A model generated the notes under the pieces. The model made no database searches. It was not told where the DNA came from and saw only the letters and a list, made by a program, of their open reading frames with translations. Source: a virus. From it: DNA of 26,362 nt. Positions 18,028-25,747 of the stretch are shown here, one piece after another. The stretch is taken from positions 1-26,362 of the IMG/VR virus record IMGVR_UViG_3300020469_000224, one strand, 5' to 3'. The translations under genes and the position numbers were made by a program. Every line of letters starts with the position of its first letter. Within the stretch, counting starts at the first letter, position 1.

Positions 18028-18491
18028 GTTTCAAGGATATTAGAGATCTAGCAAGTGGGGCGAGCAAATCAAAGGATTGGTATCGCTCACAGGTTAGGTA
18101 TGAACTAGAGCCTATAGGGCGTCCTTTACAAGCAGGTGATATCATATTCTATGACTATGTAGCACAGTCAGCTAATTTAGACTGGTATGACATGCATCCG
18201 CTAACCTATGTGAGAGAGATTGATAGTTTTCTACAGCAGTTTAACGGTGGTAATATCCATTATCTACGCCCATCTATACGACAAGCAGTAGGAAAATCAT
18301 TTGCATCGGGAGGTACGACATATCCCGCTAAGTGCCATCATAAATACTTTATGTCGGCAGCATCGAATATATACTTAGTGCCACCCGAATATTTTACAGA
18401 TTATGTGCCACTACCTTTAGAGCAGTTTCTGTTTACAAGAGCAGGAGTGAAAGTGGAAGTCCCTAGTAGCTTTATCTGGAGCAAAGTATGA
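18024..18491 (+). CDS. Conserved-looking phage protein, unknown (structural operon)
   Basis: 155 residues, no signal peptide or membrane helix. PLQAGDIIFYDYVAQSANLDWYDMHPLTYVREI (about 34-66) looks like a beta-barrel segment (GDIIFYDY...PL.YV) that I associate with unnamed T4-like phage proteins. The C-terminal half is Tyr/His-rich (KCHHKYFMSAASNIYLVPPEYF). It lies between gp4 and the gp54-like gene with ATGA overlaps on both sides, so it is probably a virion or assembly protein. I cannot assign a function. Confidence 0.75.
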   Translation: MSFKDIRDLASGASKSKDWYRSQVRYELEPIGRPLQAGDIIFYDYVAQSANLDWYDMHPLTYVREIDSFLQQFNGGNIHYLRPSIRQAVGKSFASGGTTYPAKCHHKYFMSAASNIYLVPPEYFTDYVPLPLEQFLFTRAGVKVEVPSSFIWSKV

Positions 18492-19306
18492 GTTATAGAG
18501 AACCCAACTCGTTTAATAGATTTAGAGATCAGATCAACTCAGGTAATAAGACACCTGCGAGATCCAATCTCTTTCAAGTTGTAGTGAACCCTCCCCCAGT
18601 AATGTCTTCTATTGGTGGTCTATTCCACTCAAAGTCTTCAAATGGTACGCAATTCTTAGATGAAGCACTTGGATTAGTGGATAATCAAGCAGGGTTAATG
18701 AATAGATATCGTGAGCACGCTGAAATGATGAATTACTTTGCTGATACAGTGTCTATACCTGGTAGACGAATCACTGTTGGCACAGTAAGAGATGTAGGTG
18801 CAATGAGGAGATTTGCCACAGATACAACATTTAGTGAGATGCAAGTGTCATTCTTACTACCTAAAGACATGTATCATAGAGAATACTTTGAAAGATGGAT
18901 GAATTTCACAGCATCTGACTCAGAAAATAGAGTTGGCATGTATGATCAATATACGACTACAATGCGGTTGATTAAGTGGGAATTGGCATCTAATTACATG
19001 GGAAAACAAGGAATATCAGAAGATAAAGAAGTTACAAGACGTTTTAATGGTGTATCATCATGTTGGACAATGTATGGGGCATTCCCATTTGACATGTCTG
19101 CAATCACCCTAAATAATGGACCTACTGATCTAATTAAGTTAGATGTTTCTTTCTATTACGAAAGATACCGTATGGATACCCCTAACAATGCTAAGATGTT
19201 TAAGGGGTCACTTAAAGATATCACTATCCCAATGGATAACAACGAAGTGCTATCTTCCCTTAGCATAGACTCCAGCCTCGAGAATTTTGTCGGGATTGGT
19301 CTCTAA
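18488..19306 (+). CDS. Tail-tube-fold protein, probable baseplate tail-tube initiator gp54
   Basis: 272 residues. TPARSNLFQVVVNPP (22-36), FADTVSIPGRRITVGTVRDVG (84-104), FSEMQVSFLLPKDMYHREYFERWMNFT (115-141) and the end (ITLNNGPTDLIKLDVSFYYERYRM) form the pattern of myoviral tail-tube (gp19) fold proteins, where the SIPG loop and final beta strands are typical. Position next to gp4 and before gp26 and the tape-measure genes suggests the initiator gp54 more than the major tube protein. A gp19-type tube paralogue is the alternative. It probably forms the first ring on which the tube assembles. Confidence 0.72.
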   Translation: MSYREPNSFNRFRDQINSGNKTPARSNLFQVVVNPPPVMSSIGGLFHSKSSNGTQFLDEALGLVDNQAGLMNRYREHAEMMNYFADTVSIPGRRITVGTVRDVGAMRRFATDTTFSEMQVSFLLPKDMYHREYFERWMNFTASDSENRVGMYDQYTTTMRLIKWELASNYMGKQGISEDKEVTRRFNGVSSCWTMYGAFPFDMSAITLNNGPTDLIKLDVSFYYERYRMDTPNNAKMFKGSLKDITIPMDNNEVLSSLSIDSSLENFVGIGL

Positions 19307-19330: not shown

Positions 19331-20041
19331 ATGCCTTTACCCAAACTTGCGTTACCTGAGCATGACCTTACGATCCCTCTTACAGGTAAGAAATTATCTT
19401 ACCGCCCATTCCTTGTTAAGGAAGAGAAACTCCTCTACCTCGCAATGGAATCGAAGAATGAGAAGGAGATGGTTAAAGCAGTCAAGACAATTATCAAAAA
19501 CTGTACATCACTTTCAGAGAAGGACGTTGAAAAACTTGCGACTTTTGAAATTGAGTATGTTTTCCTCAAGATCCGCTCAAAGGCGGTCGGTGAGGTCAGT
19601 GAATTCAAGGTAACCTGCCCAGATGATGAAAAGACACAGGTAGATGTAAAAGTCCCACTTGATCAAGTCGAGCTTGAAGTACCTGAAGATCATGATCCTA
19701 AGATTATGTTTACTGATGATGTAGGTGTCCTCATGAAGTATCCTTCACTTGACATCTTTGTTCAGCAAAACATGACTGAAGGAGATCAGACTATTGATGA
19801 TGTTTTTCAATTAGCAGCGGGTTGTATTGCCCAAGCTTTTGATGGTGATGAAGTTTATGATAGTTTCACTAAGAAGGAAGCAGTTGATTTTCTTGAGAGT
19901 CTAAATTCAGACCAATTCGCTAAAATCCAGACATTCTTCGAGACTATTCCAAAACTCACATACACTATGACTGTGCGAAACCCTAAAACCAAAAAAGATA
20001 ATGATATAACATTTGAGGGATTAGCAGCTTTTTTCGCATAG
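19331..20041 (+). CDS. gp26: Baseplate hub subunit gp26, 0-frame product
   Basis: 236 residues (T4 gp26: 208). KLSYRPFLVKEEKLLYLAMESKNE (21-44) is the hallmark of T4 gp26-type baseplate proteins, followed by a Cys-containing central beta region (FKVTCPDDEKTQVDVKVPL) and a helical C-terminus (ASLNSDQFAKIQTFFETIPKLTY-like). In T4, gp26 takes part in assembly of the central hub. The stop TAG at 20039-20041 comes just after T_TTT_TTC at 20029-20035. A -1 shift there would extend the protein into the gp51-like frame to give about 302 residues (19331..20035 joined to 20035..20238). The position before the tape-measure genes suggests a chaperone role like lambda G. Confidence 0.88.
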   Translation: MPLPKLALPEHDLTIPLTGKKLSYRPFLVKEEKLLYLAMESKNEKEMVKAVKTIIKNCTSLSEKDVEKLATFEIEYVFLKIRSKAVGEVSEFKVTCPDDEKTQVDVKVPLDQVELEVPEDHDPKIMFTDDVGVLMKYPSLDIFVQQNMTEGDQTIDDVFQLAAGCIAQAFDGDEVYDSFTKKEAVDFLESLNSDQFAKIQTFFETIPKLTYTMTVRNPKTKKDNDITFEGLAAFFA

Positions 20042-20068
20042 CCCTGTTGCACGATTCTCTAGAGAATC
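20015..20068 (+). other. Probable programmed -1 ribosomal frameshift site
   Basis: The canonical slippery heptamer T_TTT_TTC (20029-20035) is in register with gp26 codons, two codons before its stop. A GAGGG stretch at 20015-20019 lies 9 bases upstream, like the Shine-Dalgarno-type stimulators of dnaX. A perfect 16-base palindrome GATTCTCTAGAGAATC (20053-20068) lies 17 bases downstream and can fold as a hairpin, although stimulators usually sit 5-9 bases away. Slipping -1 enters exactly the gp51-like frame. Phage P2 uses a similar T6-type heptamer in its tail chaperone gene. Confidence 0.72.
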
Positions 20069-20238
20069 TTTATAAGACGAATTTTGCGTTAATGCAACAT
20101 CATAAGTATTCTTTGACCGAGTTAGAGAATATGATCCCATGGGAAAGAGATGTTTACGTTAATTTGTTACTAGGTTATCTTCAAGAGGAAGAAAGACGAC
20201 GTGCAGCAGAGAATAACAGAAATCGAGTAAATCTTTAA
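20035..20238 (+). CDS. gp51: gp51-like C-terminal frame, probably expressed as a gp26 fusion by frameshift
   Basis: The frame is open from the slippery site to TAA 20236-20238 and adds 67 residues to gp26 after the shift. It has no ATG near its beginning; the first possible start, TTG 20047, has no ribosome binding site and gives 63 residues. The sequence NFALMQHHKYSLTELENMIPWERDVYVNLLLGYLQEEERRRAAE is like the short C-terminal frames of tail assembly chaperones (hydrophobic helix, MPW, charged tail). Cyanophage annotations usually call this ORF gp51, the hub assembly catalyst, although T4 gp51 is much longer (249). The one-base overlap with the next gene (TAATG) fits coupling to the tape-measure gene. 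Confidence 0.75.
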   Translation, partial: RIALLHDSLENLYKTNFALMQHHKYSLTELENMIPWERDVYVNLLLGYLQEEERRRAAENNRNRVNL

Positions 20239-23018
20239 TGAGTGCAATTAGGTCATTCGTAAGAGTTAAAGCGTTTAAGTCCACGACCGCTGTAGGTCGC
20301 AACATGAATGGGCTTAGGACGAGCGTGAACAGACTCGGACGGACGACTACTAGTATTGGTAAATCATTTGAGTCAACCTTAACACTACTTGAGTTTCAAA
20401 AAAGTTTTATAATTGAAACGAAGGGAAGAGATAAAGCATACGAATCAGCGAAAAATAAAGAAAAGAAGTTGCTTGCAGCTCGATTAATAGTGCAAGAAAA
20501 AAGAGCAAAGTTTAAACAAAAACGTGAGGACTCTGCAAAATTAGCAAAGAAACTTGCTAAGGAAAAGCAAGAGATACAAAAGAAACGAGGTAAAGAAATA
20601 CTATCTCCTTTCAAGAAGATGCTTGCAAGGATCGGAGGTTTCTTTGGTACTTTATTCGGAGCATTTGCTATATTTGGTGGTCTTACATGGATGCAGAATA
20701 ATGGAGAAGCAATTCAAACTGTATTCAAAATAATTGGATCACTGGTAAAGTTTACATATAAGATTGCTAGTTTTGGCATAGGTCAGGTCTTTAATGGCAT
20801 GGTTAACATGTTTGGGACTGGCGTGCCTGGTGAAAATAAGATACAAAGGACATTCCGCTTCTTTACAGGTGGTATGCAGTTTTTATTGGGTCTTGCAGCT
20901 CTTAGAAGTGCACAATACATCCTTATGCCATGGAAGTTGTTTGGTGACGTAAATGGATTAACAAGTATTTTTCGAGATGCTAAGACAGCTGAAGAAGGTG
21001 CTAAACAAGCATCACAGAGAGTAAAAAGTGGATATTTCGATAAGAAGACTGGTCGTTACTATACAAAGCAAGAGTATAATACGATGCGTAAGTCTGCTAG
21101 GAAACAACCTGGCGGTATAAAATCATTTGAGAATAGAGTTAGACCAACCACAAAGATTGGTGGTATGAGAATGGGTGCTACCAGACGTATGGGTAACGCA
21201 TTCAAAGGAATTAAAGGAAGGATACCTGGCGGTGGTGCTACGATGTTAGCAGGTGCTACATCTGCAATAGGTGGAATATCAAGAGCATTAGCAGGAGATC
21301 AAGAAGGAGAAGCAGCAGGTACAGCAGTGGGAGCAGGTGTAGGAAAGGCAGTTGGTGGTATAGCAGGAGCAGCAGCAGGTGGAGCATTGTTACCATTCTT
21401 AGGTCCTTTCGGTCCTATGATAGGTGCTGCTATTGGTGATTTCTTAGGTGGATTTATTGGTAGTAAGATAGGACCTATTGTCCAACCTATCTTTGAGCCT
21501 ATGGCACGAGCATTTGGCATGATGAAGGAGATATTCTTAGCACCACTTATGCCAGTGATTGAGCCAATGAAAGAGTTACTTGGCACATTCTTCAGTGCAT
21601 TGGGTAATATTATTAGCACTGTCTTGAAGGCATTTACTCCTATCATGAAGTTTGTGGGTCTCGTATTGGGCACAGGTATTAAATTAATATTTAAGACACT
21701 ATCATTTACATTCAATTTAATTAAGAATATTGTTGCATTCACTATAAATCCTATAGGATTTGCATATGATGTCATAAGACGTAAGGATCCTGGCGAAGAC
21801 ATAGATCTAGATCAGGTAGCAAATGCAAAAGGATCAGAGAAAAAACCAGATTTTGATCAGTTTGCTAAGGGTGGAAAATATTTTGGAAAATTCTTCAATG
21901 CTGAGGTTATTACAGGAAATGCAGATGAAAACTTAGTAGCACCTAAGATCGTAATACAGAAACCAAATGTAGCAAAACCAGAAGAGTATGCTACAGGTGG
22001 AATATTTAGATTTGCTCTCAAAAAGACATTAGTTTTCTTTGCAACAGGTATGATAGCTGTCCTTAAAAAAGCAGTAGCAAAACTAGAATCAGGAGATAAA
22101 CCAGAAGAGAAAGCTGCAGGTGGTAATGTAAAAGTCCCATATGACTTTGTAAAAGCAAAGTTAGGTATAGATCCAGACGTATGGGATACCTATAGAAATA
22201 CAATAGGTGCCATTGAGTCTGGTAATAATTACCTTGCAAAAGGTGGCAGTAGTGATAATTATGATGGTAGATATCAAATGGGTGCCATGGCAAAGTCTGA
22301 TGGTGCAAGGTTGTTTGGTATTGAAGATCCTGGTCATAATCCTGTAACGAGACTGTTTTTCAGAAGGAGTCCACAACTACAGGAGAATCTATTTGCAGGA
22401 TATACTGCTGCGAATATGTCATACTTAACTCCATATAAAGAGTTTATTAATCAACCTAAGTTAGATCAGATGGCAATCTTGGGTTACGCACACAACACAG
22501 GGTGGAATGCTGCATTAAAATGGTTAGAGACAGGTCAGGTATCTACAGATGGATTTGGCACAAAGAGCACTAAATTCTATGACGCATTAAAAAAAGCATT
22601 TGGAGATCCAAGTAATTTCAAACCTACTATTACGCCAACACCTATCGTTGAGCCTACAATAAAACCGTCAAAAGAGGACTCAGACTCAGAGTTAGAAATA
22701 AAAGATGATACGCAACCGAAATCAGAAAAAGGAAATTTAATTGATAATCTAGAAGACTTATTTAGGAAAATAGGTGAGGCATTTAAGGGTGTTACTATAA
22801 AAAGTGCTCCCACACCTCCTACAACAGTAAGTAACGTCACAGATTATAGTAATAAAATAAAAACAAGTGCACAACAACAAAAAGATTTGGAAAATGGTGC
22901 AATGATGTCAGGTAACATTATCCCAGTCTCTGTCCCAGTGCCAATAAATAATAGTGCTACCCCCACTTCAAACCCTGTCCAAATCTTTACTCCCTTACAT
23001 CCAGCTATTCATAAGTAA
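20238..23018 (+). CDS. Tape-measure-like tail protein with lysozyme-like domain
   Basis: 926 residues. After a basic N-terminus, residues about 62-120 are a Lys/Glu coiled coil; 131-151 are hydrophobic (IGGFFGTLFGAFAIFGGLTWM). Residues about 332-414 are a Gly/Ala zipper, followed by long hydrophobic helices (to about 510), a tape-measure-like composition. Residues about 640-800 look like a lytic transglycosylase or lysozyme: IGAIESGNNY with probable catalytic E660, YDGRYQMG, and YAHNTGWNAALKWL. The C-terminus is polar and acidic with Pro and Asn. The domain would cut peptidoglycan during DNA injection. It directly follows the gp26/gp51 frameshift cassette and overlaps the next gene, a relative, by one base. 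T4 places its lysozyme in gp5. Confidence 0.82.
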   Translation: MSAIRSFVRVKAFKSTTAVGRNMNGLRTSVNRLGRTTTSIGKSFESTLTLLEFQKSFIIETKGRDKAYESAKNKEKKLLAARLIVQEKRAKFKQKREDSAKLAKKLAKEKQEIQKKRGKEILSPFKKMLARIGGFFGTLFGAFAIFGGLTWMQNNGEAIQTVFKIIGSLVKFTYKIASFGIGQVFNGMVNMFGTGVPGENKIQRTFRFFTGGMQFLLGLAALRSAQYILMPWKLFGDVNGLTSIFRDAKTAEEGAKQASQRVKSGYFDKKTGRYYTKQEYNTMRKSARKQPGGIKSFENRVRPTTKIGGMRMGATRRMGNAFKGIKGRIPGGGATMLAGATSAIGGISRALAGDQEGEAAGTAVGAGVGKAVGGIAGAAAGGALLPFLGPFGPMIGAAIGDFLGGFIGSKIGPIVQPIFEPMARAFGMMKEIFLAPLMPVIEPMKELLGTFFSALGNIISTVLKAFTPIMKFVGLVLGTGIKLIFKTLSFTFNLIKNIVAFTINPIGFAYDVIRRKDPGEDIDLDQVANAKGSEKKPDFDQFAKGGKYFGKFFNAEVITGNADENLVAPKIVIQKPNVAKPEEYATGGIFRFALKKTLVFFATGMIAVLKKAVAKLESGDKPEEKAAGGNVKVPYDFVKAKLGIDPDVWDTYRNTIGAIESGNNYLAKGGSSDNYDGRYQMGAMAKSDGARLFGIEDPGHNPVTRLFFRRSPQLQENLFAGYTAANMSYLTPYKEFINQPKLDQMAILGYAHNTGWNAALKWLETGQVSTDGFGTKSTKFYDALKKAFGDPSNFKPTITPTPIVEPTIKPSKEDSDSELEIKDDTQPKSEKGNLIDNLEDLFRKIGEAFKGVTIKSAPTPPTTVSNVTDYSNKIKTSAQQQKDLENGAMMSGNIIPVSVPVPINNSATPTSNPVQIFTPLHPAIHK

Positions 23019-25747
23019 TGGATAAACCTAAGACCACTATTAAAAAACCTACTCTTTATAAGATGGTATCTTTTAAGGGAGTGGATAATAGTGCGAGTAA
23101 AGAAACCAAGGATGTACAATCGGGTTTGAAGGCAAATATAAGTGCTGTCAATAGTATTGGTGGCACACTAAACTCTCTTTCATTAGTTGCTAATAAGATG
23201 GCAGGCACTATGAAAGAGATTGTAGACTTTCAGATATCAGAGAGAGGTATACAGGAGAGATATAGGAAGAGACAAGATGAAGATGAAAAACGTGACAGAA
23301 ATAGAGAAACGATAAGGAAGAAGAAAGTAACTCAAAGAGAGAATAGAGACGAAGCTGCAGAAGTAAAGAATACATCTAGTAAATTTGCTGAGAGACTTGG
23401 AGCAGTAACTAAGGCAATGTTTGGAGGTTTCTTTCAGACATTTGCTAATATTGCAGGTTGGTTATTCTCAGGTATAGTTAAGTTTGCAATATTTGATTTT
23501 TTAGCTAAGAATCCAGAGAAAGTTAAACGATTAGCAAAGGGTCTGTATCAGATAGGTAAGTGGGCATTTGGTGTGATTAGTTTCCTTGGGGGATCTGCAG
23601 CAAATGGTCTTATGAAGTTTCTAGAGAATCCATTAAGTTTGAAAGGATTCTTTGGGGTAATGCAGTTTGCGTTATCATTGGCACCTATATTTGCAGGGTT
23701 TGCTCTACTTTCCAATCCAATAGCAGCACTTAAAGGTATTAAGGCAGTAGTAGGCATGCTATTTGGCATGGTGAAAAACCTAATGAAGGCAGGTAAACTG
23801 GGAAGCAAACTTAAGAAATTTGGAGGAGCAGTTTTAGGTAGTCGTCTAGGTCGTGGTGTAGCATTTGGTGGTGCAGCATATGCAGCTGCACGCATGAGTG
23901 GCATGGATCAGGCAGAGGCAATAGGTACTGGTGTTGGAGCAGGAGCAGGATCACAGATAGGTGGTGCTATTGGAGCAGCATCTGGAATACCTGGCGGAGC
24001 AATGTTAGGTCAAGCAGCAGGTGCATTTGTTGGTGGAGCAGCAGGTAAAGGTATTGCTCAAGCAATGGAGCCTATTATTGCACCAATCAAAAGATTCTTT
24101 GGACAAGTTGCTGAAGTATTCTCAGCAGTCTTTACACCCATACAGGAGGCAGCAGGGGACTTCTTTAAGGCACTTGGTAATGCATTCACTCAGGTCTTAG
24201 ATTTTATTGAGCCAGCAATGCCAACTATCAAGAAAGTTGCCACATTCTTTGGCTCAGCAGCATTTGCACCCTTGATTGGATTGATGAAAGCATTGACTTT
24301 TGTATTAGGTTTCTTTGCAGGTGGATCGGATAAAGAGAAGAAAGCTCCGAAAAAAGAGAAACCAAAAACAAAAGTTACAAAGACTACTACTAAGAAAACT
24401 ATATCGAGTCGATTCGATATGGATTCTGGTAAGGGATATATTAACGATAAAGAAGTTTCTACAGATGAATATGTTGCTTACTTCAATATGAGTCGAGCTG
24501 AAAAGCTTGCTAATTATGGTGTACCTGCGAAAGCAGAAGGTGGTGTTGTAGTTGTCCCACAAATGGCAGAAGGTGGAGAAAGTGCAGATTTATCAGTGGC
24601 ATCTGAAGATAATGATGTCAATGGTGCACTAGGTAGTGTCTTAGGATATATGAAAAAGTTGGTCGGACTCCTAAAGGAAGGAGACGGCGGTGGTGGATGG
24701 TTGAATCCTAGTAACTGGTTTGCAGGTGGTGGTAAATTAGGTGGATGGATCAATGGTCCTCAATCTGGTTATCCTGTAAGTTTAAATGGTGGTAAATCTA
24801 CATCATTTATTGGTCACGGTTTGGAGTGGGTTGGATATCCTAAGAAAGCAAGTGGTGGATCAGCATTCATTGTCCCATTCAATACACCTAAGACAAAATC
24901 AAATGCAGGTCTAACTGATCAGAGAATGAAAGAAGCAAAGAGTAAAGGTTATGCTTTACCTTTCGCTGCAGGTGGTGAATATAATTCGTATCAAGAGTTG
25001 ATTGCAGCAGGTGGAAATGTAGAAGATACTGCTGCGGGTGATTTTAGAGCTGTTGAAATTTATGGACCTTGGGAATACTATAGGACAGGTTTCTTAGGAT
25101 TAAAGAAAGGAAAGAGGAGAGCTGTAAATAAATTCTATGTAGATGGTGACTATAAGCAGGCACAAATGCCTATCGCTGATTATGTTAATATGAAGATGGG
25201 TTGGAATGAGACCAACGCAACAGCAACTTTAAAGTCAAAAGCTGAGATTGAAGAGAAGAATAAGAAAAGGAAAAATCTAAGAGGACAGGGTGCTAAAGAT
25301 AGAGGTAGAGAGGGTGGTAACTTTAGTGGTGACCAACAGATGAATGAGAGGGGTGAATATGCATTTAAAAATAGAGAAAATGAGAAAAAGATATCACCTT
25401 ATAAAAAGTCAGGTGATCTAGACAAACTAAAGATGTATCTTTCTGATGAGAAAGAAGTCAAGAAGTCTGGTGAAACAATAAGTGAATTTAGAATACAAGA
25501 GAATGCTGAGTTACAAAAGATGGTAACAGAAAGTAACGCAGACATGGCAGCTGCCGTTGAGCAACAGAATCAAATGGTAGCAAATATGGCATCACAGTCT
25601 AGTGGAGGTGGTGGTCAGGCAGAAGATGTCCCTATCATTACACCTAACTTCTCACAATGGAATGAAGCAGATCCATTCTTTGTTTCTAAGTTTGATAACT
25701 TTAGAAGCATTAAACCTGATATGCATTGCACTAACAAACTTAAATAA
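23018..25747 (+). CDS. Second tape-measure-like tail protein, related to its upstream neighbour
   Basis: 909 residues. The plan repeats that of the previous protein: coiled coil at about 75-125 (ERYRKRQDEDEKRDRNRETI), hydrophobic segment (GGFFQTFANIAGWLFSGIVK), Gly/Ala zipper about 267-347 (IGTGVGAGAGSQIGGAIGAA), then EPIIAPIKRFFGQVAEVFSA matching QPIFEPMARAFGMMKEIFLA. No lysozyme signature is found. Instead about 575-620 has GGWINGPQSGYPVSLNGGKS and FIGHGLEWVG with repeated AxGG elements, a motif I associate with cyanophage tail proteins. The C-terminus is charged and Gln/Asn-rich. It is likely a tail-length or hub-core protein; it and its neighbour appear to be an ancient duplication. Confidence 0.78.
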   Translation: MDKPKTTIKKPTLYKMVSFKGVDNSASKETKDVQSGLKANISAVNSIGGTLNSLSLVANKMAGTMKEIVDFQISERGIQERYRKRQDEDEKRDRNRETIRKKKVTQRENRDEAAEVKNTSSKFAERLGAVTKAMFGGFFQTFANIAGWLFSGIVKFAIFDFLAKNPEKVKRLAKGLYQIGKWAFGVISFLGGSAANGLMKFLENPLSLKGFFGVMQFALSLAPIFAGFALLSNPIAALKGIKAVVGMLFGMVKNLMKAGKLGSKLKKFGGAVLGSRLGRGVAFGGAAYAAARMSGMDQAEAIGTGVGAGAGSQIGGAIGAASGIPGGAMLGQAAGAFVGGAAGKGIAQAMEPIIAPIKRFFGQVAEVFSAVFTPIQEAAGDFFKALGNAFTQVLDFIEPAMPTIKKVATFFGSAAFAPLIGLMKALTFVLGFFAGGSDKEKKAPKKEKPKTKVTKTTTKKTISSRFDMDSGKGYINDKEVSTDEYVAYFNMSRAEKLANYGVPAKAEGGVVVVPQMAEGGESADLSVASEDNDVNGALGSVLGYMKKLVGLLKEGDGGGGWLNPSNWFAGGGKLGGWINGPQSGYPVSLNGGKSTSFIGHGLEWVGYPKKASGGSAFIVPFNTPKTKSNAGLTDQRMKEAKSKGYALPFAAGGEYNSYQELIAAGGNVEDTAAGDFRAVEIYGPWEYYRTGFLGLKKGKRRAVNKFYVDGDYKQAQMPIADYVNMKMGWNETNATATLKSKAEIEEKNKKRKNLRGQGAKDRGREGGNFSGDQQMNERGEYAFKNRENEKKISPYKKSGDLDKLKMYLSDEKEVKKSGETISEFRIQENAELQKMVTESNADMAAAVEQQNQMVANMASQSSGGGGQAEDVPIITPNFSQWNEADPFFVSKFDNFRSIKPDMHCTNKLK

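Follow-up and report, generated by a model that had tools for sequence, protein, structure and literature searches.

A probable -1 frameshift junction between gp26 and gp51 in T4-like phages, with features of a lambda G/GT-like tail chaperone pair and a two-gene counterpart in T4

The lambda proteins gpG and gpGT are described as acting on the tape measure protein, with neither of them present in the mature virion (PMC5009743). They consist of a short form and of a -1 extended form, as does the pair of products predicted for the locus reported here, a likeness that was drawn without sequence comparison. Lambda G/GT slips on a different heptamer. In the Vandenendeviridae and Andersonviridae, a poly-T -1 site has been proposed for the TAC gene that precedes the tape measure gene, the site being a GTTTTT motif and the phage families differing from that of the present locus (PMC12846349). 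For T4-like phages, the core of the matter is already known: their chaperone genes were identified by Vladimirov, Gautam & Davidson (2022, Virology 566:9-15), and the idea of a chaperone pair, which had been put forward in a preliminary description of this DNA, is therefore not new. Sources that cite this work report one short gene and one fused long gene in some T4-like phages (PMC10885494) and, for the TAC-N genes of T4-like phages, known poly-T -1 slippery signals (PMC12846349).

The TAC-N and TAC-NC genes of that study are apparently the same as those of the cassette examined here, which belongs to an uncultivated relative of P-TIM40. Genes 26 and 51 of T4 are reportedly treated there as separate, and the frameshift is said to be kept in several T4-like groups; as this content agrees with the sequence results given below, the core was classed as already known. 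In T4, gp26 and gp51 are presented as hub assembly chaperones, gp51 being described as an essential protein that has no known function and that the particle lacks, and the location of gp26 in the hub being backed by genetic studies (PMC3004832). This last point counts against a chaperone reading since a transient chaperone would not be expected there.

The window, i.e. the whole stretch of DNA that was analysed, comprises 26,362 nt of an IMG/VR virus record (IMGVR_UViG_3300020469_000224). The features that bear on the cassette are the following.

18488-19306, + strand: gp19-like gene for the tail tube protein, shortly before gp26 (phrog_45, E 2.4e-43).
19331-20041, + strand: gp26 ORF of 236 aa, putative short form, TAC-N-like (PF12322 / phrog_150).
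20015-20019, + strand: SD-like GAGGG, ending 9 nt before the heptamer.
20029-20035, + strand: slippery heptamer T_TTT_TTC (TTTTTT[C/T/A] in 194/194 junctions).
20035-20238, + strand: -1 frame extension, gp51-like and TAC-C-like, RIALLHDSLENLYK..., joined to gp26 by the predicted slip.
20039-20041, + strand: gp26 stop TAG in the 0 frame, one sense codon 3' of the heptamer.
20053-20068, + strand: 16-base palindrome located 17 nt past the heptamer and forming a 6-bp hairpin with a 4-nt loop; lacks conservation and is of doubtful role.
20238-23018, + strand: 926 aa ORF adjoining the cassette, lysin/tape-measure-like (phrog_90, phrog_167).

The 3' end of gp26 reads GCT TTT TTC GCA TAG, which places the heptamer in the X_XXY_YYZ phase, and a -1 slip would yield FF-RIALLHDSLENLYK..., via CGC at 20035-20037, up to a stop ending at 20238. 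The preliminary description had reported T_TTT_TTC in register near the gp26 stop with -1 entry into a gp51-like ORF, a GAGGG nine bases upstream and a perfect 16-base palindrome 17 bases downstream, all of which were confirmed at these spacings, with one sense codon between heptamer and stop. It had also noted that the gp51-like ORF is devoid of an ATG and of a ribosome binding site at its TTG; indeed, no ATG was found near the start of this frame, whose first start codon is the TTG at 20047, and no SD-like sequence was found 5' of that TTG. The product of gp26 matches PF12322, T4_baseplate (gp26), with 223.3 bits (cut-off 24.5) over positions 2-219 of the 219 in the profile. Against phrog_634, labelled "baseplate hub assembly catalyst", the stretch in the -1 frame gives E 3.6e-30 over positions 52-120 of the 121 in the profile; in T4 gp51, the corresponding in-frame part is the C-terminus. 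The stretch also matches positions 227-276 of 282 of phrog_150, the gp26 family (E 3.8e-08), and this match to the C-terminal part suggests that some members of phrog_150 are fused proteins.

The gp26-gp51 cassette is very probably a chaperone pair resembling lambda G/GT, which would arise through -1 frameshifting in the window and through a gene duplication in T4. Most ribosomes would halt at the gp26 stop and give the short form, while some would slip by -1 on T_TTT_TTC and give the gp26-gp51 long form, aided by the SD-like element that precedes the heptamer by ca. 9 nt and, for many clades, also by a hairpin downstream. If lambda gpG and gpGT are taken as a model, the N-domain would attach to the tape measure protein, and tail tube subunits would be brought in by the C-terminal tail. 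T4-type Straboviridae would obtain these two forms from separate genes, 26 for the short one and 51 for the long one. What the sequences themselves show is the heptamer and the phase with their conservation, the SD-like bias, compensatory hairpin changes in two classes, the kinship of T4 gp26 and gp51 with each other and with this pair, and the difference in copy number between the records examined. Slippage in vivo, the ratio of the two products and the chaperone role are the parts of this scheme that we infer.

Homologues were taken from IMG/VR and from named phages, giving 244 sources including the window; the IMG/VR matches amount to at most 80 loci in each of four searched groups and are samples rather than full counts. 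Six T4-type two-copy loci were removed before counting, and among the matches listed an in-phase heptamer near the gp26 end together with gp51 in the -1 phase was found in 234 of the 238 single-copy sources. Of the four exceptions, two (L038 and L153, both cut by contig ends) carry the heptamer and break off 25 and 43 nt past the stop, one is a fragment of T4 gp26 (L087) and one is Vibrio K393 (L096), which is without the heptamer. These four were dropped, and the removal of 40 near-duplicates from the 234 left 194 non-redundant junctions.

All 194 junctions carry the heptamer TTTTTT[C/T/A] in phase and gp51 in the -1 phase, NNT TTT being followed by TTC (170), TTT (23) or TTA (1), and the gp26 stop lies one sense codon past the heptamer in 170 of them. 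At other codon positions of gp26, in-frame TTTTTTY occurs 3 times out of 41,516. The junction therefore goes beyond chance, because heptamer and -1 phase have both been kept in every one of the non-redundant homologous junctions. Outside this set, T_TTT_TTN was found in 13 of 27 later loci, namely four Aeh1-like loci (one being Aeh1 again), phi-ST2, P-SSM2, P-SSM4, P-TIM40, L264-L266, RL38J1 (with TTG) and XG4 (with TTA); the remaining 14 correspond to nine Ackermannviridae-like and five two-copy T4-type loci. At the junction of the Rhizobium phage RHph_I1_18 (L094, ca. 2199-2209), T_TTT_TTA overlaps with T_TTA_AAC so that two slippery sites are on offer, and gp26 is several codons longer before its stop.

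A poly-T junction could also be a relic, with gp26 working alone and the -1 frame decaying, and gp51 is indeed unannotated in some records. This reading has next to no probability in our assessment: the -1 frame is open over 55-69 codons in 192 of the 194 junctions (those in which the contig reaches its stop), and that of the window matches phrog_634.

The ACKERMANNVIRIDAE-like (Ackermannviridae-like) loci, ten in number (L096, L244-L247, L252, L258, L259, L267 and L268), represent nine genomes as L258 is, judged by length and identity, phiMAM1 again. An open frame in the -1 phase follows gp26 in 10/10, and the gp51 profile matches this frame in eight, with no match for K393 and VPALA. NTT_TTC with an A after it stands where T_TTT_TTC would be expected, and this lack of the canonical heptamer counts against the frameshift reading. 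Four of the ten loci have TAATG (K393, PP35, Cygsa01 and Gloob) and the rest have ATT, ATC or ACG. A T7 gene-10-like slippery site would fit these loci, in line with the poly-T comparison made in PMC12846349.

Whether gp51 has a start of its own was examined over codons 1-14 of the -1 frame, in which an ATG is present in 110 of the 194 junctions, only GTG or TTG in 27 and none of the three in 57. The ATG is most often the fourth codon, a few bases past the gp26 stop (71 of the 110). The preliminary description had named as a check whether heptamer and -1 phase are conserved across homologues while a gp51 ATG is absent; the first part held throughout the junctions whereas the second is not general. 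The frequency and position of the ATG, together with the TAATG of the four Ackermannviridae-like loci named above, would agree with gp51 being a separate protein made by termination-reinitiation just past the gp26 stop. We nevertheless consider this very unlikely. An SD-like 4-mer precedes the ATG in only one of the 110 ATG-bearing junctions, 57 junctions offer no start codon of the three kinds, and the heptamer is retained even where an ATG is present. Furthermore, the peptides encoded between slip and ATG (RIAL / RISM) are alike in lineages with and without the ATG, and S8, phiMAM1 and VPALA show ATT, ATC or ACG in place of the ATG of their relatives. As either L or M occupies the common ATG position in otherwise alike peptides, the ATG looks more like a codon that supplies a hydrophobic side chain than like a start that is required. 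Frameshifting thus remains the preferred source of the gp51 part, and reinitiation may be an extra route in ATG-bearing lineages. The suggestion that a separate gp51 gene may be a misannotation gains support from the junctions lacking all three start codons and from the near absence of SD-like 4-mers at the ATGs. In public records, gp51 is annotated from starts inside the -1 ORF in six loci (L088, L089, L090, L257, L254 and L255) and is unannotated in two (L093 and L244); such annotations likely correspond to a misannotated long form. One Acinetobacter record names gp51 "tape measure protein assembly chaperone".

Upstream of the heptamer, an SD-like 4-mer was found within 22 nt in 178 of the 194 junctions versus 659 of 3492 control windows from the same genes, and the gap between the heptamer and the nearest 4-mer is 8-9 nt in 171. 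The Glu codon at position -5 is GAG in 102 cases and GAA in 39, compared with 1245 and 2938 in gene bodies (Fisher p 1.8e-24), so that selection appears to act on the nucleotides and not on the residue alone. This nucleotide bias, along with the conservation of heptamer and phase, supports the earlier proposal, in which -1 frameshifting gives gp26 and gp26-gp51 as a pair of chaperones.

Downstream, RNA folding of 45 nt taken from 3 nt past the heptamer gave a mean z of -2.47 over the 194 sequences, and offsets of 0, 5 and 8 gave -2.10, -2.28 and -1.66, against +0.38 to -0.96 for nine control offsets located at least 12 nt downstream or at least 60 nt upstream (z-scores from an approximate dinucleotide shuffle, 15 shuffles each). 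Stems of at least 8 bp follow the heptamer in 80/194 junctions (shuffled mean 21.1) versus 53/194 at the control offset -300, and the corresponding counts for stems of at least 7 bp are 116/194 and 97/194; because the -300 offset is rich in stems, these counts alone are weaker support than the z-scores. Across the 194 gp26 genes, long stems are in fact commoner ca. 300 nt upstream of the heptamer than at the rest of the control offsets. A single universal hairpin was rejected, since the hairpins fall into several clade-specific classes and the stem scan found no stem of 5 bp or more in 12/194.

Compensatory changes were assessed in two hairpin classes, with rows picked by sequence motif, a choice that favours their stems. 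Class A (11 bp, 5 nt past the heptamer, 37 rows) has 93.4% of its cells paired and 11 compensatory cells versus 2.1 when shuffled, and class B (5 bp, 10 nt past the heptamer, 42 rows) has 86.7% paired and 23 compensatory cells versus 9.1; these values of 11 and 23 were each reached in 0/500 shuffles, a test that kinship among the rows inflates. Slid controls gave 25-43% paired cells with up to 8 compensatory cells for class A, and 9-54% with up to 6 for class B. One pair of class A occurs as UA in 26 rows, AU in 4 and GC in 3. With a weaker covariation measure, in which pairs changed on both sides are counted, the observed value was matched by 15/500 shuffles for class A and by 101/500 for class B.

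The palindrome of the window (20053-20068) is common to the near-identical contig L001 and absent from P-TIM40, which is ca. 90% identical in gp26, and close relatives carry other stems. It was consequently rejected as a conserved stimulator. Its spacing of 17 nt is also long for a frameshift stimulator. No SD-like element or hairpin at the T4-like chaperone site was found in the literature searched, and Vladimirov et al. (2022) may contain them.

These elements also bear on the nature of the slippage. Some transcriptional slippage sites are runs of T or A, and the six-T runs at the junction, with seven or more T in 23/194, could lead RNA polymerase to slip and give an edited transcript instead of ribosomal slippage. 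The run is however exactly six T followed by C or A in 171/194, the T-run always falls in the X_XXY_YYZ phase, and an SD-like element at a near-fixed 8-9 nt combined with downstream hairpins is a feature of ribosomal sites. Polymerase slippage is on these grounds highly improbable, even more so than reinitiation, and slippage by the ribosome is retained as the explanation.

PF12322, the family of gp26 of the window, also matches gp26 (208 aa, 215.6 bits) and gp51 (249 aa, 177.5 bits) of T4, and T4 gp51 has an extra tail at its C-terminus, a part that also matches phrog_634; T4 gp51 is thus composed of PF12322 and the gp51 tail in one frame. The situation in T4 is that of two divergent neighbouring genes, 26 and 51, whereas the window has one frameshifted gene. 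In RB43 (L249, 2482-3791), the gp51-like and gp26-like copies are in tandem on one strand while those of T4 are divergent. When PF12322 was searched in 22 records chosen for diversity and not at random, two copies were detected in T4, RB43, 44RR, Acinetobacter DLP2, Krischvirus FL15 and Proteus Pm5461. The other 16 records have one copy and include cyanophages, a Methylophilales phage, Aeh1, phi-ST2, D490 (KVP40-like), alphaproteobacterial phages, a Stenotrophomonas phage, K393, two Ackermannviridae and L001. The single copy was found both in P-TIM40, which is complete, and in L001, a fragment (43.9 kb contig); the window covers only 26 kb. Aeh1 and phi-ST2 are also classed in the Straboviridae, yet they have a single frameshift gene. 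In a tree of 50 rows, likewise chosen for diversity, the 14 T4-type rows form one clade versus the 36 single-copy rows (98/95), with several long branches and a root that is not fixed, a topology that, as far as sequences go, is consistent with one duplication.

An AlphaFold model of the window gp26 was obtained with a pLDDT of 92.1. For its residues 1-88, the best of 741 aligned chains was 2ob9, a tail assembly chaperone from HK97 (Z 7.5, rmsd 4.0, 84 aligned), and the second was 3klu, YqbN (Z 7.2, rmsd 3.9, 86 aligned), the next having a Z of 5.2; values of Z under 8 can reflect a common arrangement, and the Foldseek E for the HK97 match is not significant (1.4 and 2.0). We take YqbN to be a relative of the tail assembly chaperones. 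HK97 gp13 and B. subtilis YqbN thus appear to resemble the N-terminal domain of the predicted gp26 model, and they are 107 and 119 residues long, gp26 being about twice that length. A PDB sequence search returned no relative of gp26 (best E 0.098, unrelated). For a model of T4 gp51, no tail-chaperone row was present among 994 aligned chains (best Z 3.3), which by the rule of the search tool is not evidence of a different fold. The chaperone pair is further supported by the tentative fold match of gp26 to tail assembly chaperones and by T4 gp51, in which a gp26-like protein and the gp51 tail share a single frame.

The cassette had been described as lying upstream of two tape-measure-like genes, a statement that gains no more than partial support. 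The 926 aa ORF matches phrog_90, "endolysin", with E 5.5e-138, and its best tape-measure family is phrog_167, with a weak match (E 2.8e-10); among the eight families matched by the 909 aa ORF, none is labelled tape measure. Both ORFs, which are adjacent at 20238-25747, match endolysin-labelled families (phrog_90 and phrog_1200). The annotations of phiM12 and RHph_I1_18 place a tape-measure-like gene one ORF further down from gp51.

Taken with the Ackermannviridae-like and T4-type loci, the candidate stimulators incline us, by a small measure, towards a composite recoding signal in Kyanoviridae and their relatives. In this signal, an SD-like element at 8-9 nt and covarying clade-specific hairpins would tune the chaperone ratio, the hairpin classes having been replaced repeatedly while the heptamer stayed fixed. 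In Ackermannviridae-like phages, the heptamer would have become NTT_TTC A with the -1 phase kept, and in T4-type Straboviridae one duplication would have replaced the frameshift.

On the chaperone-pair reading, the classical T4 genes 26 and 51, long presented as hub assembly factors whose role is unclear, would be tied to the general lambda-like chaperone pair. An annotation habit would be corrected as well, as several of the records examined present gp51 as a free-standing "baseplate hub assembly catalyst", place its start within the -1 frame or leave it out. Should the stimulatory elements prove real, they would constitute a natural series of frameshift signals and, with T4, a case in which recoding has been replaced by gene duplication.
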